A stretch of 23,801 nucleotides of DNA from the IMG/VR virus record IMGVR_UViG_3300046011_003787, positions 1 through 23,801 of that record; one strand, written 5' to 3'. Of the stretch, positions 1,750 to 22,551 are shown piece by piece (position 1 is the first letter of the stretch; every line of letters starts with the position of its first letter). This DNA comes from a virus. Under the pieces are notes generated by a model, which saw only the letters and a program-made list of their open reading frames with translations, ran no database searches and was not told the origin of the DNA. A program made the translations under genes and the position numbers.

Positions 1750-3540
1750 ATGCCTTATACAATAAACAAATTCAACGGTACTGTATTCACAACCCTACAA
1801 GACGGCCAACTAAATGTTGAGTCAAATATTGGGTTAGTTGGTAGAAACTACGTTGGATATGGAGAAATACAAAATGAAAACTTTCTATATTTGCTAGAGA
1901 ATTTCGCTAATGATGGTGCGCCAAATAGACCAGTGATTGGACAAACTTGGTTTGATACTAAATCAAAAATAATGAATGTGTACAACGGTAGTCAATGGAG
2001 TCCTATTGGTTCTGCTACAGTTGCTGACGCAGCGCCATTGTCTCCAGTTCCAGGTCAAGTATGGTTTGATACAAAAAATGCGCAGTTATACACCTATCAC
2101 AATTCCGCATGGACTTTCATTGGTCCTGAATCAGTTGTCAATTTTGGCACAACTCGAGCAAAAGCAGTAGGTATTAAAGACTCAACCGGTACAACAAGAC
2201 CAATCTTAATATTAACAGTAAACGAAACGCCGATTGCAATTTGCTCCGCAGTTGCATTTACCATTGCACAAACAAACCCGGTGAATGGGTTTTTGGATGT
2301 AGTTGCTGGGTTGACAATTTCAAGCCTATTATCGGTTAAAGGTGCTATTACTGGTAATGCAGATTCTGCGTCTAAGTTAAAAAACACAGTAACTATCAAT
2401 GGCGTTGGATTTAATGGTGAATCTCCAATCACAATCAACGCAAATACAACCAACAAGTTAACAGCTGGAATGTATATATTAGGTAATGAATTTGATGGTT
2501 CATCACCGCAAACGTGGACGATAAACGCGTCATCAACCTCCTCACCTGGAACGGTTGTTGTTAGAGATGGCGCTGGTTCATTTAGTGCGGCTGTAGTGAA
2601 AGCAAATTTAGAAGGTAACGTAATTGGTACAGTAACAGCACCAGATGCATCTTTAAGTAAATTTGGTATTATTGAAGCCAAAGAATATCGTGGTGCTGCA
2701 TTCAGTGGTACTGCCGAATCAGCTATTAAACTCACCACTGCTAGACGAATCAATGGAGTGCTATTTGATGGTACAGTTGATATTAATCCACCAGCAAATG
2801 CCGCAAGTTTAACCGGAACTACGATAAATTCATCGGTTACTGCATCGAATTTAAAAACCCTTGGAACGTTGGATGCACTGTATGTTGCAAATACGGGGAT
2901 AAACGTTGGTTCAGTTGGTGGTCCGCAGCTAAAACTATCCGTCACTGGTAATATACCAACTATCAATGCACCAAGTGGTAATTTCAATCTGGATTTAGGA
3001 GCAACTGGTGCATCATTGACTTTCATCAATGCTACAGCTGCTGGTTCATTAAATTGGGATACAAAGGCAACTATCTATAGTAAACAAGCAATTAACATTG
3101 GGTCATCTGCTAATAAGATCAATAAGATTTATGCTACCGAATTCAATGGTACTGCAACTGCTGCACAGTATGCTGATTTAGCAGAAAATTACGTAGCAGA
3201 TGCGCAGTATCCAGCTGGCACGGTGGTTGAATTTGGTGGTGAATTTGAAGTAACGATTGGAACAAATGAATCACCGAGAGTAGCTGGTGTTATTTCAACA
3301 CAACCTGCATATTTAATGAACTCGATGGCTGATGGCGAATTCGTTGTTCCTGTTGCATTGCAAGGTAAGGTACCATGTAAAGTTTCTGGTACTATTCGCA
3401 AAGGTGATTTGCTGGTTAGTGGCGGGTATGGATATGCGATTTCAGGAACGCATCCTAAAATTGGAACAGTTATAGGCAAAGCCATCGAAGATTTTGATGG
3501 TGAATATGGTGTAATTAACATCGTCGTTGGTCGAGTTTAA
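1750..3540 (+). CDS. Virion/tail structural protein, paralogue 2, with YADLAE C-terminal domain
   Basis: Probable phage tail-fibre-like structural protein of 596 residues. The start is supported by AGGAG about 10 bases upstream. Residues 1-55 form the paralogue module (MPYTINKFNG, GRNYVGYGEIQNENFLYLLENF). Residues 62-126 hold two repeats of the GQ[TV]WFDTK…Y-N/H…W type. The middle is a β-rich shaft with Gly-Thr/Gly-Asn turns. From about residue 465 comes a compact C-terminal domain (FNGTATAAQYADLAENY, then VAGVISTQPAYLMNS, KGDLLVSGGYGYA) that is also present in the next gene. From memory, this 'YADLAE' domain ends many T4-like phage fibre proteins and somewhat resembles the Peptidase_G2 type domain of phage tailspikes. 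Whether it cleaves itself or assists trimerisation cannot be told here. It sits in a row with its paralogues, so joint assembly is inferred. Confidence 0.72.
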   Translation: MPYTINKFNGTVFTTLQDGQLNVESNIGLVGRNYVGYGEIQNENFLYLLENFANDGAPNRPVIGQTWFDTKSKIMNVYNGSQWSPIGSATVADAAPLSPVPGQVWFDTKNAQLYTYHNSAWTFIGPESVVNFGTTRAKAVGIKDSTGTTRPILILTVNETPIAICSAVAFTIAQTNPVNGFLDVVAGLTISSLLSVKGAITGNADSASKLKNTVTINGVGFNGESPITINANTTNKLTAGMYILGNEFDGSSPQTWTINASSTSSPGTVVVRDGAGSFSAAVVKANLEGNVIGTVTAPDASLSKFGIIEAKEYRGAAFSGTAESAIKLTTARRINGVLFDGTVDINPPANAASLTGTTINSSVTASNLKTLGTLDALYVANTGINVGSVGGPQLKLSVTGNIPTINAPSGNFNLDLGATGASLTFINATAAGSLNWDTKATIYSKQAINIGSSANKINKIYATEFNGTATAAQYADLAENYVADAQYPAGTVVEFGGEFEVTIGTNESPRVAGVISTQPAYLMNSMADGEFVVPVALQGKVPCKVSGTIRKGDLLVSGGYGYAISGTHPKIGTVIGKAIEDFDGEYGVINIVVGRV

Positions 3541-3544
3541 TAGG

Positions 3545-3551
3545 CTAAATA
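3545..3551 (+). promoter_or_regulatory. Candidate late-promoter-like CTAAATA element
   Basis: The 37-base gap before the third paralogue contains GGCTAAATATC. The word resembles the T4 late promoter core (TATAAATA) without matching it. The same word occurs in two - strand gaps (15557-15563 and 22960-22966). The assignment is inferred from similarity and position only. Confidence 0.25.
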
Positions 3552-3577
3552 TCATGAAGCCCCATGGAGTTTAAGTA

Positions 3578-5293
3578 ATGGCATATCAAGTAAATAAATT
3601 TAACGGAATACAGTTAACCTCAGTATCAGATGGTACTATAGACACCTCGACAGATTTGACCTTCATTGGTAAGAATTATGCAGGATATGGTGAAGTACAA
3701 AATGAAAACTTCCTTCATCTTTTAGAAAGTTTTTCAAATGCGACACAACCACCAAAACCAATTTCAGGCCAATTGTGGTATGATACAAGCACCAAGAAAA
3801 TAAAAGTATATGATGATGAAAAATTCAAAGTAGTCGGTGGTGCTGAATTTGGGTCTGCCGAACCAATGAATCCAGGATTAGGTGATTTATGGTTCAATAG
3901 CCAAACTCAGCAGTTACATGCATGGAATGGAACTTCATATCAACTAGTCGGCCCAGACTTAAACACTGGTCAATCTGCAATGGCATCTGTTCCAGTAACG
4001 GATGTTAATGGTGTTTCCCATACAATTACTAAATTATCAGCTGGTGGTAAGGTAATTCTCGTTTTAAACAAGGATGCTGAATTTGAATTGAATGCAGATA
4101 TTATCCCAGATTTCACGGTTATCAAGCAAGGTGTTACCTTAGCATCTAGTTCAACTGGTATTAGTTTGGGTGATTGGATTTACTGGGGCACTACCTCAAA
4201 TTCTCTTAAACTTGGTGGGACGGATGCAGAATATTTCATGCGTCGAGATAATCCAACATTTAATACCCTTGTCAAATTCAAAGACCCTGGCTTTACTGTT
4301 GGTGATCAAGAAGATTTATCAGTCAGAGTTGATGCAAATGATCAGGTGATTTTAGAAAATAGATTAGGAAATCCAATTACGTTTAAAGTAGCAGAGAGTA
4401 CAGCTACTCAAGGGGTTTTAGTAATCGATAAACAAGTTGTAAAACCCGGTAATGGTGATATTGTTGATTTAGGCACTAATGAATTAAAATGGGGTACCGT
4501 TTATTCGTTGGCCATCAATACAACTGCGGTTAATTCTACGGCAGTAGTAGCATCAACGTTTACCGGCGCACTTACCGGAAATGTAACAGGCAGCGTAACC
4601 GGAAATATAACTGGTGATGTAACCGGAAATATAACTGGTGATGTAACCGGAAATGTAACCGGAAATATAACTGGTGATGTAACCGGAAATGTAACCGGAA
4701 AACTTAATACATATCAAACTGCGGTACCAGCAACAGCAAATACTATAGTGGTTCGTGATTCTAATGGTGCTATCAGTGTATCAGGTATTACCGGTACTGT
4801 TGACACTTCTAATAAAATCAAAGTATCAGATTACGGTTCAGAATTCTACACCACTGCAAATATTCAGGGCACTGCTAATACCGTTGTGGTTAGAGATTCA
4901 CAGAGTATAATAAATGGTACAGCAACTGCGGCCCGATATGCTGATTTGGCTGAAAAATATTTGACTGATAAAGAATATGAAGTTGGTACCGTGGTTACTG
5001 TTGGTGGTAATGCTGAAGTAACTGCATGCGAAATTGGAAACCATGCAATCGGTGTTGTTAGTAAAAATCCAGCATTTATGATGAATAGTGGATTAGTTAA
5101 TGGAACATACATCGCATTGAAAGGTAGAGTTCCAGTGCTAACTACCGGCCCAGTTATGAAAGGAGATAAATTGACAGCTGGTCCTACTGGTTTGGCAATT
5201 CCTACCAAATCACCAAACAATCACATATTTGCAATTGCATTGGAAACCAATGATACAGCTGGTGTGAAATTAATCGAAGCAGTTGTACTATAA
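3578..5293 (+). CDS. Virion/tail structural protein, paralogue 3, with VTGN/VTGD repeats
   Basis: Probable phage tail-fibre-like structural protein of 571 residues. The start is preceded by GGAG about 8 bases upstream. Residues 1-50 are close to the previous gene (MAYQVNKFNGIQ, GKNYAGYGEVQNENFLHLLESF), followed by GQLWYDTST and GDLWFNSQT units. Near residues 420-445 the sequence TANIQGTANTVVVRDSQ recalls the VVVRD segment of paralogue 2. Around residues 333-374 there is a low-complexity run of four-residue Gly-[Asn/Asp]-[Val/Ile]-Thr units, probably a β-helical shaft. From residue 447 the YADLAE C-terminal domain follows (GTATAARYADLAEKY, IGVVSKNPAFMMNS, MKGDKLTAGPTG). The gene ends 9 bases before the giant fibre gene and presumably shares its transcript. 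Confidence 0.72.
   Translation: MAYQVNKFNGIQLTSVSDGTIDTSTDLTFIGKNYAGYGEVQNENFLHLLESFSNATQPPKPISGQLWYDTSTKKIKVYDDEKFKVVGGAEFGSAEPMNPGLGDLWFNSQTQQLHAWNGTSYQLVGPDLNTGQSAMASVPVTDVNGVSHTITKLSAGGKVILVLNKDAEFELNADIIPDFTVIKQGVTLASSSTGISLGDWIYWGTTSNSLKLGGTDAEYFMRRDNPTFNTLVKFKDPGFTVGDQEDLSVRVDANDQVILENRLGNPITFKVAESTATQGVLVIDKQVVKPGNGDIVDLGTNELKWGTVYSLAINTTAVNSTAVVASTFTGALTGNVTGSVTGNITGDVTGNITGDVTGNVTGNITGDVTGNVTGKLNTYQTAVPATANTIVVRDSNGAISVSGITGTVDTSNKIKVSDYGSEFYTTANIQGTANTVVVRDSQSIINGTATAARYADLAEKYLTDKEYEVGTVVTVGGNAEVTACEIGNHAIGVVSKNPAFMMNSGLVNGTYIALKGRVPVLTTGPVMKGDKLTAGPTGLAIPTKSPNNHIFAIALETNDTAGVKLIEAVVL
4577..4698 (+). repeat. Tandem 12/24-base repeat in fibre shaft
   Basis: Perfect 24-base units encoding G-N-I-T-G-D-V-T occur at 4601-4624, 4625-4648 and 4661-4684. 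Twelve-base half units encoding G-N-V-T are interleaved at 4649-4660 and 4685-4696, with degenerate copies just upstream. The copies are identical at DNA level, so the array looks recently expanded and may vary in copy number by slippage. Confidence 0.85.
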
Positions 5294-5302
5294 GGAGATA
5301 TA

Positions 5303-8300
5303 ATGGCCGTTACAGATTTGATTACCGCAGAAAGATACAATGCGTTGCAGCGTCGAATAGCAGCTGTTTTGGGCATAAGTGATACAGGCTATGGTATGGC
5401 TGTTACTAGTTCAACAGTGATCGCAAAAACAACCATGCAAGGGTTGGATATGCAAAAGTTAAGAAACGATATGATTTTATCGCGTCAACACCAAACTGGA
5501 ACACCCGTATCAGCGAATGATTTACCAATTATCGTTAAAGATAGCGTAGTATCCGATTCGACTTATTCGTTGTATTATGAACCATTTATGACTCAAATCG
5601 AGACATATAAATTAGATATGGCGAATAATCAATCAACAACAGCTGATCCAGTAACTAGCTTACGTGCCGTACCATGGAATACTGGTGTCAATCACGTGAT
5701 TAGATTCAAGTTCTTGAATGCTTTGGATGCTAAACACTTCTTCAATGCTGGTGGTGAATTGTTAATTAGTGCATCCTTGGAAAATCCAGTAGGTGTAAAG
5801 AGTAATTCGTGGAATGCGTTTTTAGCTAAACTTGGTACTATAAAAATAACAAAAAATGCAACGACTTCAGGTTGGACCTCCACAGGTACTGCACTTGGGT
5901 ATTCATCGTTAACCGATGCTGGTGAATCCGGGGACTACCGAGTATTTTTCACTGGTAATGATACTGGTTCGTATGCGTTGAATTCATATGTTGTTGCAGT
6001 AAAAAAGTGGACAGCTGTTGACCAAACTCATAATATAGATGTTAAAGTTATGTTTATTGATACAGTAGCAGAAACGCCATCGGATTTACTAGTATCTGGT
6101 ACATTGACCAGCCGGGTTACTTATAGAATTGCGTCAGGTGATAATGTATCATTAATAGATAAAAAACCGACCGTGTCAACAATCACACCGTTAACGGATT
6201 CGTCGAGTTACCAAGCATCATTGTCAACTTCAACACCAGGTAGCAGCACAGCGCTTGAAGGTTTGACAGTAACGGCAACTGTATCAAACTATGGTAGTTC
6301 AAATGCAATTGTTTGGTATTTGATTGGTGGTGATGTATCAAGTTCAGATTTAGCAACTGGTACGGTTATGAAGGCGCCAATCACATTTGACGGTAATGGA
6401 CAATTCACGTTGCCTATTGTCACTGCGGTAGATGGAATATTAGATAGAAACACAATGCAATTTTTCGTGTATGATAGAGATCCTAATCTTACAGGCGCAA
6501 CACAACTTGCTGGTAGTAATATAATAACCATCACTGATGACGTTTCGATTGCGTTATCATCATCGGTATCGGAGATTAACGAAACTACCAGTAAACTAGC
6601 CACTATCTCCATTGCAACCACTGGGATTAGTAATGGAAAATATTTACAATGGGAAGTTACTGGTGTAGATGGAAAAGATGTATCTAGTAGATTGGATATC
6701 GTACCGCCTAATACTAGTTCTAATTCCGGTACTTCTACTCAAATCACCAATCAACTTGCATCATTTAAGATTTCTGCAAAGAATAACAGTACTGCGGATG
6801 GTGATATTCAGCTAAAAATAATCGCAAAATTAATAACAGATGGTGATATATTAGCAGTATCAGAACCGCTTCTTATGTGGCTACGTGATACGTCATCACC
6901 TACGTTGAGCATCCGAACATATGCGTATTGGTTAACTCCAGGGGTTAATGAAGGCACTGGTATATCAGTTGATATCAATACTGTAAATATCCCAAATGAT
7001 GCAAGAATTGATTGGAAAATAACAAACAAAACTGGAAAGATAACTGCAGCAGATTTTGATCCTCCAGTATTAACGGATTACACCAACACAACTGTTGCAA
7101 GCGGTTCAGTTAATGGAACAGCAACCGTACCACTTAAGATTTATGCGGATAGTACATTCAACGAAGGCGATGAAACCTTTACCTTTACGGCTACTTATAC
7201 TGCACCAAACGCGGTAGTATATACCGCAACTACTGACATTAATATTAAAGATACATCAACGTTCCCTGCGTCGTTTGTTAAATCACCGAATTATACAAGT
7301 CCTACAACATTGATAACTTACACCAAGTTAACATTATCAATGCTACAGTGGCCTATTGGATCATTGGTTGGTGATATTTTTAATTATACGATTAAAGCAT
7401 ATGCTACAACTGATGTAACGTTCACAACACCATTGATAACCTTTAATCCAGGTAGTTTTGTTAACAACACCAATAGTTTAGCTGATGTTCTAATACAGCA
7501 CCCACATCAAGCGTATAAGGTAAAAGCTACTATTACAAATTCAAAATATGATAATTTTTCAAGTGTGTTGGATATACCGTCATCCACAGCACCGACTGCG
7601 ACTGTCGCGTATTCACCAGACACAACAACGGTAAATGTCGATTCGGCTGTTACCTATACAATTTCGAATGGTATCCCATATGGTTATTACCACTTTGAAG
7701 TTAAAAATGGTAGTACATATACACGACCTACTGCGATGAAGCAACTTGATTCCAATGGCAGTGATACTGGTGAATTTACCTCTAATATAGCGGGTGACGT
7801 TATAACTCGGATAAATTTCATTAATGGAACGCCATCAACAGATAAAACCATCACATTTAAGTTTGGTATTGAAGAAGTGAAGTTAGTGCAAACTGGACCA
7901 TATACTTCCGGGGTGAAATATACTGCAAAAATAACAAATGCGTTGGTTAATGACACATATACCATTAGCAATTATCCAAAAGCATCTATACCGGTGACTT
8001 CTGGAACGATTTCAGTAAATGCGAATGCAAATACATTTGAAATTACACCAACCGCTGGTGGTACAGTATCAGCTGATATTGCATTTACTCGATCTGGTCA
8101 TACGGCGTACTTAAATTTCACGGTAGGTGCAACGGTAGGTCTTACCTTGACGCAAAATCCATTGTGGACCACGACGGGTGTAAACGAGGGGACTAGTTTG
8201 TCTGTTTCAGTATCGACGGTGAATATCCCAAATGGTGCTACTATTAACTGGGCTATCACAAACAAAACTGGCACTGGCATAACTGCAAATGATTTTTCAC

Positions 8301-10417
8301 CAGCTACATTATCTGGATTCGTAAAACCAACAGTGCCATCTGGTTCAATTAACGGTACTTGTACTATACCATTAACTATCGTCAATGACAGTTCATTTAA
8401 TGAAGGCGTTGAATCGTTCATATTAACTGCGTCATACACGGATGGTACTCAATCATATACTGGTACATGTGAAGTTAAAATAAATGATACCTCGTCTTTC
8501 CCGGCAGCATTTACTAGATTATCAAATTATAAAGACCCAGCCACGCAAGTCATGTATTCCGTGTTATCGTTGGTTATGACTTCTTGGCCGGTTGGTTCTG
8601 TTGTGGGTGATAAATTTGGATATGACATTAAAGTATATTCAGATGCTGGACTTCAAACCCCAGTGAAATCGTTAGCATCTGACTATTTCGTTAATAATTA
8701 TTCTAGTTCAATATCAGTTAGTATACCGCAACCACACCCAGTGTATTACGTTACTGCAACGATCAAAAATTCAAAATATGACACGTATACTAGTACACTG
8801 CAAGTATCAGCAGCTGCCGCAACACCGTTAACTGTATCATACTCACCGACCACGAATGCTACAGTGGATAGTAATGTGATATACAATGTCGCCGGTCCTG
8901 CTAACGCATATTACTTCTTCGAGGTAAAAAACGGTACTACTTATACACAATCTGATAAACGACAGTTATCTGATACTGGTGCTGGTAGTGGTACATTCAC
9001 GTCAAACGTTGCGGGTGATGTAATAACACGTGTAAATGTTATAAGTAGCAATCAACAATCGGACGATCATACTACTAAGTTTACATACTCAACCGAATCT
9101 GTTAGTCTGGTTCAAACAGCACCATATTATACAGGTATTCCGTATACTGTGAAGATAGGAGATGCAAAACTGGGTGATACTTATATGATAACCGAATTGT
9201 CGAAATGCAAAACCAATAAAGAAAACGGAACAATTACCAAAAATTCGGCTGATAACGTGTTCACGGTAACACCAATAGGAACTGATGAATCATACAATCT
9301 AAATTTGACTGTTGGATTCGCACAATCCGGTCATAAATTTCCACTATCCATCGCAGCGTTGACCAAAGGATTGACTTACAGTGCAAGTACGCTGTATGGG
9401 GATATTACCGGTAAAATAACAACCGATATTACAATCACGTTATCAAATGCAACATTCGTAGTTGATTTGGCAAGTACGAGTACGTATGTTACATTCCCAA
9501 ATGCGCCGACATGGTTATCTCCAGTAATAACAAGATTATCAGATACACAAGTTAGACTCACCATTACGACAAGATCACCAACCGCTGACAATCTAGCAAC
9601 TGGGTTTAGTAACTTAAATATTACATTCTTAGACGCTGCATTCACTGATGGTGGTGCGGCTACTCTATTAAATTACAAATATAACGTAAATATTAAATTC
9701 CCAACAATCACTAAATTTACTACGGATGACGTATTTGTAGTCCCAGCTGGTGTATCTCAGATTCAGTTTACTGCTGTTGGTGGTATGGGTGGTGGTGGTG
9801 GAAAAGACACCAACTGGGGGTATTGCGGATTTAGTGGAACTGTGGTTTCTGGTAAGTTTTCGGTTACACCATCAAACACCATTGATATCAAGGTTGGTAA
9901 AAGTGGTGGTAGTAATCTGTCAGCCGGTAACAATACACCCGGTGGATTGGGTGGTGTTGGGTATAGTAACGGTGGTGGTGGTGGTTCTTCTGGCGGTACT
10001 GGTATATCAGGATCAGGTGGCGGTGGAGGTGGATCGAGTGCATTATCTTTAAATGGTACCGTGATAGTAATTGCCGGTGGTGGTGGCGGTGGAGGTGGTG
10101 GCGGTCAGTTTGGAAAAGGACAGAGTAACACCAACGTCATCGTTAATAGCGGTTCGACTGGAGGGCATGGTGCCAATAGAGGATCTAGTGATGGTGCTGG
10201 CGGTGGAGGTGGTGGTGGAGGTTACGTAGGTGGTGGTGGTGGAAATCTAGTATCTGGCGATAAAGGCGGGTATTCTGGTGAATCTGGTACTTCATACACT
10301 AATCAGTTAGTAACTAGTGTTACTATTGTACCTGGCGTTAGTAGTGGTGCAGTTGACCCAAAAACGGTGACACAATATTTCCCTGGTTATGTTGTAATAT
10401 CATACCAATTACCATAA
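5303..10417 (+). CDS. Giant adhesin-like tail fibre protein with duplicated modules and poly-glycine tip
   Basis: A 1704-residue probable fibre or receptor-binding protein. The start has AGGAG six bases upstream. The N-terminus (MAVTDLITAERYNALQRRIAAVLG) looks like a short α-helical attachment segment; I recall similar starts in marine T4-like structural proteins. A segment of about 410 residues occurs twice, at roughly residues 540-945 and 950-1355. Each copy starts with a Calx-β-like stretch (VNEG…VNIPN…NKTG…FNEG[DV]E) and continues with matching blocks (GD[IK]F.Y.IK, NSKYD, YSP[DT]T, FEVKNG[ST]TYT, FTSN[IV]AGDVITR, SGH). From about residue 1470, FVVPAGVSQIQFTAVGG leads into a glycine-rich domain with poly-Gly runs of up to ten residues, ending VVISYQLP. 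Poly-Gly tips occur in T4-family adhesins such as gp38, so receptor contact is inferred. No enzymatic motif was seen. A convergent terminator follows. Confidence 0.75.
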   Translation: MAVTDLITAERYNALQRRIAAVLGISDTGYGMAVTSSTVIAKTTMQGLDMQKLRNDMILSRQHQTGTPVSANDLPIIVKDSVVSDSTYSLYYEPFMTQIETYKLDMANNQSTTADPVTSLRAVPWNTGVNHVIRFKFLNALDAKHFFNAGGELLISASLENPVGVKSNSWNAFLAKLGTIKITKNATTSGWTSTGTALGYSSLTDAGESGDYRVFFTGNDTGSYALNSYVVAVKKWTAVDQTHNIDVKVMFIDTVAETPSDLLVSGTLTSRVTYRIASGDNVSLIDKKPTVSTITPLTDSSSYQASLSTSTPGSSTALEGLTVTATVSNYGSSNAIVWYLIGGDVSSSDLATGTVMKAPITFDGNGQFTLPIVTAVDGILDRNTMQFFVYDRDPNLTGATQLAGSNIITITDDVSIALSSSVSEINETTSKLATISIATTGISNGKYLQWEVTGVDGKDVSSRLDIVPPNTSSNSGTSTQITNQLASFKISAKNNSTADGDIQLKIIAKLITDGDILAVSEPLLMWLRDTSSPTLSIRTYAYWLTPGVNEGTGISVDINTVNIPNDARIDWKITNKTGKITAADFDPPVLTDYTNTTVASGSVNGTATVPLKIYADSTFNEGDETFTFTATYTAPNAVVYTATTDINIKDTSTFPASFVKSPNYTSPTTLITYTKLTLSMLQWPIGSLVGDIFNYTIKAYATTDVTFTTPLITFNPGSFVNNTNSLADVLIQHPHQAYKVKATITNSKYDNFSSVLDIPSSTAPTATVAYSPDTTTVNVDSAVTYTISNGIPYGYYHFEVKNGSTYTRPTAMKQLDSNGSDTGEFTSNIAGDVITRINFINGTPSTDKTITFKFGIEEVKLVQTGPYTSGVKYTAKITNALVNDTYTISNYPKASIPVTSGTISVNANANTFEITPTAGGTVSADIAFTRSGHTAYLNFTVGATVGLTLTQNPLWTTTGVNEGTSLSVSVSTVNIPNGATINWAITNKTGTGITANDFSPATLSGFVKPTVPSGSINGTCTIPLTIVNDSSFNEGVESFILTASYTDGTQSYTGTCEVKINDTSSFPAAFTRLSNYKDPATQVMYSVLSLVMTSWPVGSVVGDKFGYDIKVYSDAGLQTPVKSLASDYFVNNYSSSISVSIPQPHPVYYVTATIKNSKYDTYTSTLQVSAAAATPLTVSYSPTTNATVDSNVIYNVAGPANAYYFFEVKNGTTYTQSDKRQLSDTGAGSGTFTSNVAGDVITRVNVISSNQQSDDHTTKFTYSTESVSLVQTAPYYTGIPYTVKIGDAKLGDTYMITELSKCKTNKENGTITKNSADNVFTVTPIGTDESYNLNLTVGFAQSGHKFPLSIAALTKGLTYSASTLYGDITGKITTDITITLSNATFVVDLASTSTYVTFPNAPTWLSPVITRLSDTQVRLTITTRSPTADNLATGFSNLNITFLDAAFTDGGAATLLNYKYNVNIKFPTITKFTTDDVFVVPAGVSQIQFTAVGGMGGGGGKDTNWGYCGFSGTVVSGKFSVTPSNTIDIKVGKSGGSNLSAGNNTPGGLGGVGYSNGGGGGSSGGTGISGSGGGGGGSSALSLNGTVIVIAGGGGGGGGGGQFGKGQSNTNVIVNSGSTGGHGANRGSSDGAGGGGGGGGYVGGGGGNLVSGDKGGYSGESGTSYTNQLVTSVTIVPGVSSGAVDPKTVTQYFPGYVVISYQLP
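6895..9370 (+). repeat. Internal duplication of ~410 residues in the giant fibre gene
   Basis: The first copy spans about 6895-8130 and the second about 8131-9370. The encoded blocks occur in the same order in both copies: VNEGT, VNIPN, NKTG, SFNEG, NSKYD, FEVKNG, AGDVITR, LVQT.PY, SGH. The DNA copies have diverged substantially, so the duplication is old. Boundaries are approximate. Confidence 0.8.
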
Positions 10418-17651: not shown

Positions 17652-18638
17652 TTAAAAAGAAAACAACGAATTGAAGAAGTTATCCTGACGGGTTTCACGC
17701 AAATCCCAGTTGAGTACACCAATCAAGTTGTCCAACTTGTCATCGATCAACTTCTCTTCCATGATGGCTTCATCAAATGGAAGTTCCTTAAACCATTGAG
17801 GTAAACGTTGTTCATCAACTGGATACGCTACGCTCTTGAATCCCATCGGGTTATCTTTTAGTGTACAAACTACCACTTTGGATCCATCGATAATAGACAT
17901 AGTATACTTGTCACTATTCATTCGTTTTAATGTATTCCAATTGATACTAGCTCTGACTTGACCTGGCATAGTTGCCTTGCCTTTATCGGTTAATAACGTA
18001 CCGTACTTGGTGATGTTATTAGCTCGTTTAGGAGAACCCTTTTCCCAACCATTCCATTTCTTGAATTCTTGTCTGAATTCGGTAATGTACTGGATTGTAT
18101 CCTCTTTTGGTTTACCATTAAGTACCATATTCAATACATTACTTAAAAAGTCTTGAATTGGTGGGGGGGTATCAGATCGTCTTAAGTCCAAACCCATGGC
18201 TTTGACTTTACCGGTTTTTCCGTTTACGTCTGTTCGTTTACCTTCTTTATCGAAGTAAAGTACAGCATAACGTTTCTTGGTGATGAATAATGCTTTAGAA
18301 CCTATGATCTCGCGGCCAGCCTTAATAACAGAACCACGTGCTTTAGGGCAATGAAACGCAGTGGACATAAACTTAGGGAAAGTCTCGTTAACTTCTTCAC
18401 CAATAGCATCATAAAACTGAATGATTGATTCTTTATCCCATGGAATCAAACCAGCTTCGATATCTGGTTTAAGTGTTTCATACGCAGAGAAATATACTGA
18501 ATTATGAACTAGTATATCGTTACCAAAAAACCATGGATCTGTTGCGTTAACTCCAATGTCGTATACGTATTCGTCATCAAACGGTGATAACTCCTCAACG
18601 ACTGTCACCGTTGATAATTCTGAAACAAATTGCATCAT
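17652..18638 (-). CDS. 43: DNA polymerase part 2: C-terminal split-intein half plus polymerase C-terminus
   Basis: A 328-residue precursor. Residues 1-46 are the C-terminal half of a split intein: block F at about 24-44 (YVYDIGVNATDPWFFGNDIL), then VHN, with His45 and Asn46 as the cleavage pair. Residues 47-328 (18500 down to 17655) are the polymerase C-terminus, starting SVYFSAYETL, the continuation of motif C (DTD|S). The palm/thumb segment contains KKRYAVL (a KxY-type motif), and the end FFNSLFSF resembles the hydrophobic clamp-binding tail of T4 gp43. By itself it lacks catalytic aspartates and must be joined to part 1. AGGAG overlaps the TAG stop of the endonuclease gene; it lies 3 bases before the first ATG and 6 before the second (18635), so Met2 may be the real start. 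Confidence 0.93.
   Translation of the reverse strand: MMQFVSELSTVTVVEELSPFDDEYVYDIGVNATDPWFFGNDILVHNSVYFSAYETLKPDIEAGLIPWDKESIIQFYDAIGEEVNETFPKFMSTAFHCPKARGSVIKAGREIIGSKALFITKKRYAVLYFDKEGKRTDVNGKTGKVKAMGLDLRRSDTPPPIQDFLSNVLNMVLNGKPKEDTIQYITEFRQEFKKWNGWEKGSPKRANNITKYGTLLTDKGKATMPGQVRASINWNTLKRMNSDKYTMSIIDGSKVVVCTLKDNPMGFKSVAYPVDEQRLPQWFKELPFDEAIMEEKLIDDKLDNLIGVLNWDLRETRQDNFFNSLFSF
18501..18638 (-). other. Split intein, C-terminal half (46 residues)
   Basis: The encoded segment matches intein blocks F and G: Y-V-Y-D-I-G-V…W-F-F-G-N-D-I-L-V-H-N followed by Ser+1. The last His-Asn pair performs Asn cyclisation, and Ser+1 is the acceptor nucleophile in the family. The N-terminal residues (MMQFVSELSTVTVVEEL) would pair with the N half. 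Confidence 0.92.
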
Positions 18639-18644
18639 AAACTC

Positions 18645-20375
18645 CTAAAATTGTAAAATATAAATCAATTGGCCACAATCCCACATTCTGCGGTATTTGT
18701 TATCATACATATTTTCAACCAAAGTTTTGCTTTTGTCAAATATTGGTAATGTATTTTCCGCGATTGATTTGGTGAATTTGCAACGATGGTACGTTTTTTG
18801 ACCTTTGATATATTGATATGTTGGTTTTTCAATTGAATCTAACACGAACCCATTGGATTCAAACAAAGCACCGTTATCGAATCTACGATCAGCATATGCA
18901 ATTAATGCACCAGTCTTATCCTGTGTGAAATGCGAAAGTATTACACTAAACGCGGATGGTATGCTTGTGTATATTAGGGTGGCATACCTTACCAGTTCAT
19001 ACGTGTTTGGTTTCGCATTTCTATCATTAGATTTGGCAAAGGTGGCTAATGCAACTAGTACACCATCACGTTCTAAACCAATATGCGATGATCCATGAAA
19101 GTAACCATAAATATGATTTTCTTCCATGAACTCGATTGCGGTGCTAGAATCCACAATTATGATATCGCAGTCAGTAATCTTTAATATCGTTGGTGCGACC
19201 TGTAGGTTTTCAAGTATAATCGATTTCCATATTTCCTTTTTCGTTGCATTCAATCCCCATTCTGATTCGTTGATATGAAATAGTTGAATACCTCGACTTT
19301 CACACTCAGTGGTCTTGTACAAGTGTGCAGATTTATATTTCCAATCTAAATCTTTACTATTGGAAGAATGCCAATGCAATCCATTATATTCGATTGCAAT
19401 GTTATAATCTGGCAGATAAACGTCTAACTCGTAACTGAAAATCCTATTAGAGTAGGTTACATTAGAAATACCAGAGTCTTCCAACCACGTAACCAATTCT
19501 TTTTCTGCAGCGGACCTGCTTGTTGTTGTCTCATAACCACACTGTTGACACCCATTCCCGGCAAGGTGGTAATACGCGACTTGATTAAATGGCCCGTGTA
19601 TCGGACATTCAATTTCTACAATAGAACGAGAACCATTATATATTGTATTCGGGTATTGGTATTTTCCAGAATGCTTGATATTTGCCAACCTGATAAATTC
19701 TGCAGTCGATCGAGTTAGATTTGTACTACTCAATGCGTTTGCACATTTTTTACAACCATGGCCGCGCATATGAGTCGATGCGACTTGTGTAAATTCACCA
19801 TGTACTGGGCATATAATAGTAATGATGTCTTTTTCAACTTTATCAAATTGCACTTTGGAATAATCGTAATAGTCACCAAAATACTCTTTGCTTCTAGCTA
19901 ACCAGGTAGCATAATCTACTCTCGGTGGCATTTCTGTCCGATCGTAACATTTATTACAACGCATACCGGCTAGGAAATTAGCAGCTGGTTGTGAAAAATC
20001 ACCATGGTTGTGACAATGTAGTTTTATATAGGTAGATGGAGATGCATATTGAGGCACATCAACGATCGTATACCCATATGGGTTATTTGCCTCTAATATT
20101 TCACGAGTTACAATATTTTCGGGTTTTGTATTCAAATGAGATTTACATCTTGGGGTGTATGATACATTCCTCAGTTGCTTGTCAACCCCTAAAGGCTTGT
20201 TACATATTGCGCAAGTAGGTGGTTTAGCCCCGCGCAAATATAAGCACACCGCCGCAGCTTTGTCAAATATACGAATACCACCGTAATATTCAAGTAAGTA
20301 CTTGTACTGCCGTGGGTACTTCTTTTTAAATGTTAGTACTGTCAAATTACGTTCTTCCAATTCATTCATCATCAT
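18645..20375 (-). CDS. Free-standing homing-type endonuclease, Vsr-like (EDxHD) with zinc-ribbon repeats
   Basis: A 576-residue probable DNA endonuclease that would cut alleles lacking the insertion and so drive its own spread. In order: residues 55-80, a Cys/His cluster (CAIC…CKSH). Residues 121-143, 189-211 and 257-279 are three repeats of the C-x-x-H-G-x-F-x-Q…G-x-x-C-x-x-C type (DUF723-like zinc ribbons), likely for DNA recognition. About 290-372 is a nuclease core with AEKELVTWLED, then ELDVYLPDYNIAIEYNGLHWH, the E…D…E-Y-x-G-x-H-W-H pattern of Vsr-like enzymes. The C-terminal domain of about 420-576 (ATFAKSN, YELVRYATL, YADRRFDNGALFESNGF) often accompanies such nucleases. It lies exactly between the two polymerase halves. 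GAGGAG overlaps the upstream TGA stop; the third ATG (20369) has the best spacing. Confidence 0.88.
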   Translation of the reverse strand: MMMNELEERNLTVLTFKKKYPRQYKYLLEYYGGIRIFDKAAAVCLYLRGAKPPTCAICNKPLGVDKQLRNVSYTPRCKSHLNTKPENIVTREILEANNPYGYTIVDVPQYASPSTYIKLHCHNHGDFSQPAANFLAGMRCNKCYDRTEMPPRVDYATWLARSKEYFGDYYDYSKVQFDKVEKDIITIICPVHGEFTQVASTHMRGHGCKKCANALSSTNLTRSTAEFIRLANIKHSGKYQYPNTIYNGSRSIVEIECPIHGPFNQVAYYHLAGNGCQQCGYETTTSRSAAEKELVTWLEDSGISNVTYSNRIFSYELDVYLPDYNIAIEYNGLHWHSSNSKDLDWKYKSAHLYKTTECESRGIQLFHINESEWGLNATKKEIWKSIILENLQVAPTILKITDCDIIIVDSSTAIEFMEENHIYGYFHGSSHIGLERDGVLVALATFAKSNDRNAKPNTYELVRYATLIYTSIPSAFSVILSHFTQDKTGALIAYADRRFDNGALFESNGFVLDSIEKPTYQYIKGQKTYHRCKFTKSIAENTLPIFDKSKTLVENMYDNKYRRMWDCGQLIYILQF

Positions 20376-20379
20376 CTCC

Positions 20380-22551
20380 TCATACTGTATTAATAGTCAT
20401 TACTATATCACCTGGTTTAATATCCATCGGTTTCTTTTCAATATATCCAGCATCCGTTTTGATCATAACACTATGATCTTCGGTTACTGTTACCGTTTTT
20501 CCATTCGCTGTCATTATTTTAAATCGTCTTTTAGACACTTTATGTCGATAAACATAATTGTAATTGGTGTATGACAATCGGTCTGTTCCATCGCAGTGTA
20601 TCACTTGTATATCATCATCTCGCGAATATTCTTTATCCCCCGAATTCCATTTTAAGTTACCACGATTGAATAATTCTTCGATAGTCAAATCTCCACTCGT
20701 TGTTCGAATGATAGATCCAGATTCTAGCGAATCCGTGTCATTATAAAGTATTGATTTTCCTAGATAATTATATTCACCACATACGATTTCATTAACCTGA
20801 GCCGTCATATGTCTAGTGATAGACCTACCGGTCAATGTTGTACTTTGGCCAATACGTTTATCAAAAAATCTACAACCGCTATTGAGCAAAGCTCCGTATA
20901 AACTATTTAGCAGTAATTTACAAAACTGTTCCTTAATACTCCAGTATCGTTCTTCGATGTCGAGTCCGGCATCGCGTGCAATTTTCATTTTCGCTTGCAT
21001 ACCTTGCCTATCAGCGTACCACTTTTTCAATAGCCCAGGTACAATTCCCTCTTTTTCAAATGTAAAGATAGTACCATTTGCACTTAGCATCCATGATTGA
21101 CCAGACTTGAAAATTAAATCATAGGTCTGTGCAGCACTCAGTTCATCACTGCTACCTTCTTCCCAGTCGATAGTAAGCATACGATTCGAATCTCTTGACA
21201 TAACATCATCATATTCTAAAGTCGAAAACACCCCTTCCCAACATGAAGCAAACTTCTTACCTGTAGCCATTTGATCTGCAATAAACTTATCAGTTGCCAC
21301 TGGTCTAAGTTGACCGATGATAGTCTCTGGACTCATGTTAAGTGCACGAATCGTACTAGGATACAGTGAGTTGATATCCAACGAGGCAACCCAATCATGA
21401 AGACCTTTTTTTGGATAAGCAACGTATGCTCCTGCAGCTTGCGTGTTTTCATTGTCATTACGTGGCTTTCTATTAGGTGCAATCTGACCTTTACTATGCG
21501 CCTCATTGATAATAGCTTGTTCAATAGCTGCAACAGAACCTAACGTGGTTGGTAACAATACAGTACAACCATGCGCAGTCGTATTAGCCAAATCCATAAA
21601 CTTTAACTTCTTATCCATTCTATCCAACAGTGCAACGTCTTGTCTGTTATATTCGATAAACGTCTTAAAGTCTTGATTGTATAGCTGTTCTAAGGTACCA
21701 TCATAAACAGTTTTATGGTCACCTAATTCATATTCAGCAATTGCATCTAATCGATAAGATGGCTTTTCTTCATGGGTATACTTACGATAAATGTCCAAGT
21801 AATCCATATGAACTCGACCAACCAAATCGAAAGTAGTCGAAACCTTACCAAACTTCTCGAATTCACGTTTCTTAGGAGATTGATCCCATAAGCAGAATCG
21901 ACGAGTATCGTTCTTACTTAAAACCTTAGCAACTCGATTAACGGTATATGGAATATCGAATGATTCAGAATTCCAACCACTTAATACATCAGCATCTTCG
22001 ATAATAGTAAGGAATGTATCTAATAATTCCTTTTCTGTTTTAAAGATAAACGTATTCTCAAACTCAGCTACTTGCTCTTCAGCTTCTTTGATACTCATAT
22101 GTTTTGGTGGAATTGCCAAACAAATCATAGTTTCAGACCACTGAAGATATACAGCAATAGAAACAATTGGCATAAAAGGATCGTCTGGTGCGGCATACCC
22201 ACGATCAGGACACATACTGGTCTCGATATCGAAATACGCGACATTGAGTTTAGGTGCATCTGCGTTAAGGTAATGGTCTTCAAGACAACGATAGGTAACA
22301 TTGATATCACTTTCATATAACTTCTTGGTTTGACCAAATATAGCAATATTCTTGTGATGTTCTTTGTGGGTTTTACTTTTAACCCTAGACAACGGTTTAC
22401 CTTTCATTGAATGATGGTTACCATTGGGGTCTTCGTAATAAAAGACGTAGTTTGCTGGGAATTCTCTGTAATGACGAATGCCATCTGTATCACGTTCAAC
22501 TACGTGAATGATATCGCGATCTTTTTCATAAAAAGCATCTACATAACTCAT
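20380..22551 (-). CDS. 43: DNA polymerase part 1: exonuclease and palm/finger domains plus N-terminal split-intein half
   Basis: A 723-residue precursor. Residues 1-607 are the T4-type family B replicative polymerase: Exo I YFDIETS (D108, E110), Exo II GWNSESFDIP (192-201), Exo III YNRQD (301-305), motif A LDINSLYPS (D392), motif B KLLLNSLYG (545-553) and the first part of motif C, YNDTD (603-607). Residues 608-723 are an N-terminal intein half. The second metal-binding aspartate D607 is the very last extein residue, so the active site is completed only by joining SVYF from part 2; 607 + 282 gives 889 residues versus 898 in T4 gp43. AGGAG lies six bases before the ATG. The TGA stop overlaps the ribosome binding site of the endonuclease gene. 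A premature stop or frameshift is excluded by the intact intein motifs. Confidence 0.95.
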   Translation of the reverse strand: MSYVDAFYEKDRDIIHVVERDTDGIRHYREFPANYVFYYEDPNGNHHSMKGKPLSRVKSKTHKEHHKNIAIFGQTKKLYESDINVTYRCLEDHYLNADAPKLNVAYFDIETSMCPDRGYAAPDDPFMPIVSIAVYLQWSETMICLAIPPKHMSIKEAEEQVAEFENTFIFKTEKELLDTFLTIIEDADVLSGWNSESFDIPYTVNRVAKVLSKNDTRRFCLWDQSPKKREFEKFGKVSTTFDLVGRVHMDYLDIYRKYTHEEKPSYRLDAIAEYELGDHKTVYDGTLEQLYNQDFKTFIEYNRQDVALLDRMDKKLKFMDLANTTAHGCTVLLPTTLGSVAAIEQAIINEAHSKGQIAPNRKPRNDNENTQAAGAYVAYPKKGLHDWVASLDINSLYPSTIRALNMSPETIIGQLRPVATDKFIADQMATGKKFASCWEGVFSTLEYDDVMSRDSNRMLTIDWEEGSSDELSAAQTYDLIFKSGQSWMLSANGTIFTFEKEGIVPGLLKKWYADRQGMQAKMKIARDAGLDIEERYWSIKEQFCKLLLNSLYGALLNSGCRFFDKRIGQSTTLTGRSITRHMTAQVNEIVCGEYNYLGKSILYNDTDSLESGSIIRTTSGDLTIEELFNRGNLKWNSGDKEYSRDDDIQVIHCDGTDRLSYTNYNYVYRHKVSKRRFKIMTANGKTVTVTEDHSVMIKTDAGYIEKKPMDIKPGDIVMTINTV
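20383..20730 (-). other. Split intein, N-terminal half (116 residues, Ser at position 1)
   Basis: The half begins directly after YNDTD with S-L-E-S-G-S-I-I-R (block A; Ser1 replaces the commoner Cys1). It contains block B at about 78-90 (GKTVTVTEDHSVM, with the T83-x-x-H86 motif) and ends after a PGD segment (MDIKPGDIVMTINTV). The stretch YVYRHKVSKRRFKI followed by VTEDHS resembles the N-terminal region of inteins in archaeal family B DNA polymerases, as far as I recall them. No endonuclease domain lies within the half. Confidence 0.92.

Follow-up and report, generated by a model that had tools for sequence, protein, structure and literature searches.

Split inteins in fractured genes were reportedly described by Dassa and colleagues in 2009, with the intein halves encoded by two genes that flank a free-standing gene for a Vsr-like endonuclease, which is also the layout of the locus analyzed here; their best-known members are said to be the Cys1 inteins of the gp41, NrdJ, and IMPDH genes, whereas the present intein starts with serine. 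Within family B DNA polymerases, Ser1 split inteins have been published as Neq Pol, which lies at the pol-c position (PMC549080), Aes123 PolB1, CP21 PolB1, LCGC14 PolB2, PolB16 OarG, and GOM-OPS-1 PolB2 (PMC10189870, PMC11923092, PMC12707363), and the split PolB intein of phage MIJ3 was described in 2019 (PMC6892783). The intein studied here adds one more to this known and already studied split PolB intein family. It is encoded in a 23.8-kb virus fragment (IMG/VR record IMGVR_UViG_3300046011_003787, positions 1 to 23,801), the whole of which is referred to below as the window.

The intein Aes123 PolB1 of Aeromonas phage Aes123 (PDB 9hth; PMC11923092) shares with the window intein the host gene family, Ser1 and Ser+1, insertion at DTD/S of a phage family B polymerase (the slash marks the insertion point throughout), and a natural split at the endonuclease position, with a Vsr-like endonuclease gene between the halves. 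Its split into 120 and 39 residues is similar to the 116 and 46 residues in the window. The two systems differ in the endonuclease, which has 576 aa with zinc-finger, Vsr, and GNAT-like parts in the window but is of a 353-aa type in Aes123, and in the polymerase gene gp43, which in the window lacks the additional gp43A/B split of Aes123. The window intein also has one non-conserved Cys and lies on another branch than Aes123 PolB1. The Pseudomonas jumbo phages MIJ3 and PA5oct (PMC6892783) belong to a different phage lineage but resemble the window in the insertion site, Ser1/Ser+1, and the long endonuclease type (37-38% identical), and their IntN is about 39% identical to the window IntN. The best single match among annotated phages was the PolB mini-intein of Salicola phage SCTP-2 (41% identity over the full 162 aa), which, unlike the window intein, is contiguous, occupies the YGD/TDS site two residues upstream, and has Thr+1 and a penultimate Lys. 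The archaeal and Mimivirus pol-c inteins lie in the same family B polymerase active-site motif, and the archaeal copies covered here also start with Ser1, carry Arg-His where the NX motif lies, and have a block resembling TEDHS; the preliminary description of this DNA had likened the N-terminal half to archaeal family B polymerase inteins, in part through a VTEDHS stretch. The pol-c inteins differ from the window intein in their site, YxD/TD, and in Thr+1; among the archaeal copies, long inteins (381-400 aa) predominate beside a single 157-aa mini-intein.

Anatomy of the split polymerase locus

The locus is a run of three minus-strand genes, separated by spacers of 4 and 6 bases, that encode the N part of the polymerase, the endonuclease, and the C part of the polymerase. 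The first open reading frame (20380-22551, minus strand) comprises the N-extein and IntN and reads ...SILYNDTD/SLESGSIIRTTSGDLTIEELF..., with Ser as residue 608. Its N-extein (20731-22551), residues 1-607 of a gp43-type family B DNA polymerase, ends with YNDTD of the active-site motif and matched Pfam DNA_pol_B (E 4.5e-23), DNA_pol_B_exo1 (E 5.1e-21), and the DNA polymerase family PHROG 262 (E 7e-143). IntN follows with 116 aa (20383-20730, minus strand; Ser1 codon 20728-20730). The C-part frame (17652-18638, minus strand) comprises IntC and the C-extein and begins MMQFVSELSTVTVVEELSPFDDEYVYDIGVNATDPWFFGNDILVHN/SVYFSAY. IntC has 46 aa (18501-18638, minus strand) and ends with His45-Asn46, and the 282-aa C-extein (17655-18500, minus strand) opens with Ser+1 (codon 18498-18500) in SVYFSAY, the expected remainder of the polymerase motif; it matched PHROG 1918 (E 4e-46) and PHROG 262 (E 3e-45), both DNA polymerase.

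The exact junction was located by comparison with 86 related phage IMG/VR loci (56 distinct 300-nt junction sequences; N-extein 56-68% identical) that are intein-free at precisely the junction base of the window, with both exteins adjacent as [IV]YGDTDS. Because the exteins abut at the same base in all 86 empty-site loci, the junction is fixed at Asp607/Ser and a position elsewhere, the possibility against which the preliminary description had hedged, is ruled out. Its reading of an extein ending at D607, followed by Ser and with Ser again at +1, is thereby confirmed, as is its joined intein of 162 residues (116 + 46). The full locus recurs nearly identically in a 327-kb contig (L017; IntN 96% identical) and with the same layout in another contig, L018 (IntN 75% identical). 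Elsewhere in the window, positions 5303-10417 hold a 1704-aa open reading frame that probably encodes a tail or adhesin-like protein; its translation contains repeated segments and, toward the C terminus, a stretch rich in glycine.

The 576-aa endonuclease gene (18645-20375, minus strand) lies between the two intein halves, and its product contains, at about residues 288-383, a nuclease core like those of Vsr and I-Bth0305I. When seven homologues (alignment A2) were made into a profile and searched against PDB with hmmsearch, I-Bth0305I (3R3P) matched with E 4.2e-5 over profile positions 288-383; Foldseek with a structural model of modest quality (pLDDT 68) ranked 3R3P first (E 1.2e-3) and had Vsr (1CW0) among its matches. 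The protein further matched the HNH/homing endonuclease families PHROG 559/3339 and DUF723 (E 1.6e-5). Although the MIJ3 endonuclease was called HNH (PMC6892783), the core of its homologue in the window matches Vsr/I-Bth0305I by both profile and fold, and we therefore do not retain that label. Upstream of the core are repeated zinc-finger-like units of the form CPxHG...GC..C, and the C-terminal third (about residues 400-570) has a GNAT-like fold with GCN5 and phage Mu Mom among the Foldseek matches, the profile match to GNAT being weak (2bsw, E 0.068).

Two endonuclease types occupy this one split position across the split loci. The long type of the window lies between PolB IntN and IntC in L017, L018, MIJ3, PA5oct, and the contigs L120, L123, and L153 (37-91% identical); L122 and L124 also carry it, and the endonuclease of L156 is of this type in its C-terminal half. 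The shorter type, mostly of 300-410 aa, is found in Aes123, CP21, and many other loci, and about 18 split loci, several of them near-duplicates, had no endonuclease gene. The coexistence of two endonuclease types and endonuclease-free split loci fits cycles in which endonucleases may have been gained, replaced, and lost around the split intein. In a further contig (L027:3880-4421), a gp43 fragment stops around residue 535 and is immediately followed by a relative of the window endonuclease (46% identity across the first 84 aa), with no intein visible before the contig end; gp43 may have another split point associated with an endonuclease here.

Catalytic residues and kinship of the intein

IntN matched TIGR01445 (intein_Nterm; E 6.6e-11, passing the curated cut-off) and Pfam Intein_splicing (E 1.8e-8, slightly below its cut-off), and IntC matched TIGR01443 (E 0.0046, with the bit score above the curated cut-off). 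Against profiles of phage PolB inteins, E values were 4e-42 for IntN, itself among the nine seeds of the profile, and 6e-22 for IntC, likewise among the seeds. The NX motif, a His preceded by Arg or Lys, is highly conserved in Ser1/Ser+1(Thr+1) inteins but not in Cys1 inteins (PMC10189870). In the window it is Arg62-His63 (20542-20547, minus strand), invariant in alignment A1, within the stretch YRHKVSKRRFKI that the preliminary description had singled out. Block B (motif N3) is Thr83-x-x-His86 (TEDH; 20473-20484, minus strand), with T83, D85, and H86 invariant in the same alignment. The class 1 residues are thus all intact, namely Ser1, the TxxH motif, the NX His, the penultimate His45, the terminal Asn46, and Ser+1, and they are equally intact, NX motif included, in L017 and L018. 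This is the set that characterizes cysteine-independent class 1 inteins: Ser1 with Ser or Thr at +1, Arg/Lys-His at NX, and the block B, His, and Asn residues. From these residues, splicing would be expected to pass through oxygen esters. The only cysteine of the window IntN, Cys46, occupies a position that is not conserved in the family; its presence makes the intein cysteine-independent rather than cysteine-less, the term used in the PDB title of the Aes123 PolB1 split intein (9hth). The latter was the best solved relative by phmmer (2.6e-15), compared with only 0.008 for gp41-1. It was also the top structural match (TM 0.87) of a model (pLDDT 95.6) of a contiguous 164-aa relative inserted at the same site, intein B of contig L032.

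The serine start had been regarded as remarkable. Ser1 and Ser+1 are real, but Ser1 is the rule and no anomaly within the phage PolB intein family: viral contigs and annotated phages were scanned, and each of the 104 distinct phage PolB IntN sequences obtained begins with Ser. The scans were seeded with the window's own family and hence give no count of Cys1 inteins in phage polymerases generally. Among the 104 sequences, 47 have Thr+1 at YGD/TDS, 51 have Ser+1 at YGDTD/S, and the remainder have no visible C half. Likewise, the naturally split Ser1 intein that had been pointed out is present in the window but is of a kind already published in PolB.

A tree of 88 inteins, built with residue 1 removed, placed the Ser1 PolB inteins, including that of the window, apart from the Cys1 inteins of gp41, NrdJ, and DnaE with support of 91/92. 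Forcing the window intein among the Cys1 inteins cost 37.7 log units (AU p 0.035, evidence of moderate strength). It neither starts with Cys nor groups with gp41-1 or NrdJ-1, and the tree, the AU test, and the phmmer comparison all speak against kinship with the Cys1 split inteins of gp41/NrdJ. The phylogeny called for in the preliminary description therefore supports its proposal that the intein descends from a polymerase-specific intein and not from the gp41/NrdJ type. In the same tree, phage PolB inteins and archaeal pol-c inteins were joined at 80/64. A PolB-only tree of 99 rows united the phage inteins in one group (98/83), in which the window intein stands with those of Aes516, a Campylobacter phage, and MIJ3, and this group adjoins archaeal pol-c, which is a tentative candidate for its exact sister. 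Aes516 stands in for Aes123 in the tree, their IntN being identical over the compared part. The sequences that served as references for gp41-1, NrdJ-1, Npu DnaE, and Neq agreed with PDB chains over the aligned stretches, and the archaeal sequences used come from the genomes themselves.

Insertion sites and tandem inteins

The pol-c intein lies at YxD/TD[GS], two residues upstream of the window site, in nine of nine archaeal loci, and the Mimivirus intein lies at YGD/TDS (PMC549080), so the archaeal position given in the preliminary description was right. The window intein, at YNDTD/S with Ser+1, does not belong to this allele, which is defined by YxD/TD and Thr+1. Phage inteins occupy both points, site A (YGD/TDS) and site B (YGDTD/S), and inteins of the two sites are intermingled on the tree. 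Three changes (a point estimate) are required for site A on each of the two trees; one site-A intein (L167) is sister to a site-B intein (L173) at 100/95, and SCTP-2 and intein A of L143 join at 100/98 inside a B-rich group. A single clade of phage site-A inteins was rejected in the 88-row set (AU p 0.022) but not in the 99-row set (p 0.095), and a clade uniting phage site A with archaeal pol-c was rejected (AU p 0.005). More than one shift between the two sites is likely, a statement that we make with moderate confidence and that leaves the number and direction of shifts free. A few phage site-A inteins (in L003, L143, and L323) end in Lys-Asn rather than His-Asn (NILLKN/TD, LLVKN/TD). In an archaeal polymerase gene (L009), the pol-a intein starts with Cys (DFR/CHPADT) and the pol-c intein starts with Ser.

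In three contigs of two lineages both sites are filled, leaving a two-residue extein, TD, between the inteins. Contig L032 (IMGVR_UViG_3300043449_000599; inteins A and B at 5149-6126) reads in one open frame ...IIYGD, a 160-aa intein A, TD, a 164-aa intein B, and SCYFSAY; the 483 nt that separate the N-extein from the intein were considered as a possible group I intron and proved to be a second in-frame intein. In L285 (IMGVR_UViG_3300020198_000887; 2608-3700), a contiguous intein A and TD are followed by a split intein B whose C half is encoded by the adjacent gene downstream. In L143 (IMGVR_UViG_3300009194_000009; 4001-5887), an endonuclease gene separates the halves of intein A, after which come TD and a contiguous intein B. 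One of the three tandem contigs was found by a scan with the junction alignment. All three are metagenomic assemblies, and the tandem junctions are those of the assembled contigs. The catalytic residues of the tandem inteins appear intact, except that intein A of L143 ends in Lys-Asn. For each of the two inteins, the L032 and L285 copies are relatives on the tree (100/92 and 100/93), and the L143 pair groups elsewhere, which argues that the tandem arrangement probably arose at least twice. A text search of mainly open-access literature returned no report of inteins this close together. In L032, gp43 is also broken upstream of the inteins into two overlapping open reading frames (3140-4781 and 4762-6973), like gp43A/gp43B of Aeromonas phages.

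On balance, we favor the view that the lineage of the window intein has moved between YGD/TDS and YGDTD/S, both of which are filled in L032, L285, and L143, and that the window site is one half of a paired target. In those three contigs the middle extein would then consist of Thr-Asp alone, and the polymerase active site would be rebuilt only when two separate splicing events both succeed, which in L285 would be a cis and a trans reaction.

Proposed mechanism and significance

We consider it highly probable that a fractured-gene element divides the DNA polymerase gene of a large phage in the window, with a naturally split cysteine-independent class 1 intein and a Vsr-like homing endonuclease gene interrupting it at codon 607/608 (YNDTD/S), and that the two polymerase pieces are joined by the predicted trans-splicing. 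The two precursors would be translated separately, and IntN and IntC would associate and fold. Ser1 would attack the Asp607-Ser1 bond in an N-to-O acyl shift, Ser+1 would take over the ester, and Asn46 of IntC would cyclize, leaving the exteins joined as YNDTDSVYFSA with the catalytic motif restored. By analogy with I-Bth0305I, the endonuclease may cut intein-free polymerase genes near the site and so spread the whole cassette between phages.

It is conceivable that the halves no longer splice and that the polymerase pieces assemble non-covalently, like gp43A/gp43B of some T4-related phages; a non-covalent two-piece gp43 does function in Aeromonas phage 25 (PMC2988022), and a related endonuclease adjoins the truncated gp43 of L027, where no intein is visible up to the contig end. 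We regard this as very improbable, given that the window, L017, and L018 have kept every class 1 catalytic residue together with the NX motif, that in vitro splicing is published for the relatives Aes123 and LCGC14 (PMC11923092, PMC12707363), and that the break falls inside the YGDTDS motif, where an unspliced intein would presumably occupy the active site. Less probable still, to the point of being negligible, is an origin of the window intein in the Cys1 split lineage of gp41/NrdJ with a later change of Cys1 to Ser. The two do have the fractured-gene layout in common, and the L032 intein B model also matches NrdJ-1 and gp41-1, though as inteins generally do. Against this origin stand the separation on a tree built without residue 1, the AU test, the far stronger phmmer match to Aes123 PolB1 than to gp41-1, and the NX His typical of Ser1 inteins.

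The window locus adds a predicted Ser1 split intein to the small set relevant to thiol-free protein ligation. The survey of the family outweighs this single locus. At both neighboring insertion points, Ser1 is invariant across some 100 distinct inteins of phage polymerases, two endonuclease types occur at one intein split, and tandem inteins with a two-residue extein are present in sequenced phage contigs. Together, these observations open two questions to experiment: by what route an intein comes to lie two codons away from its former site, and how splicing proceeds at two inteins with a two-residue extein between them.
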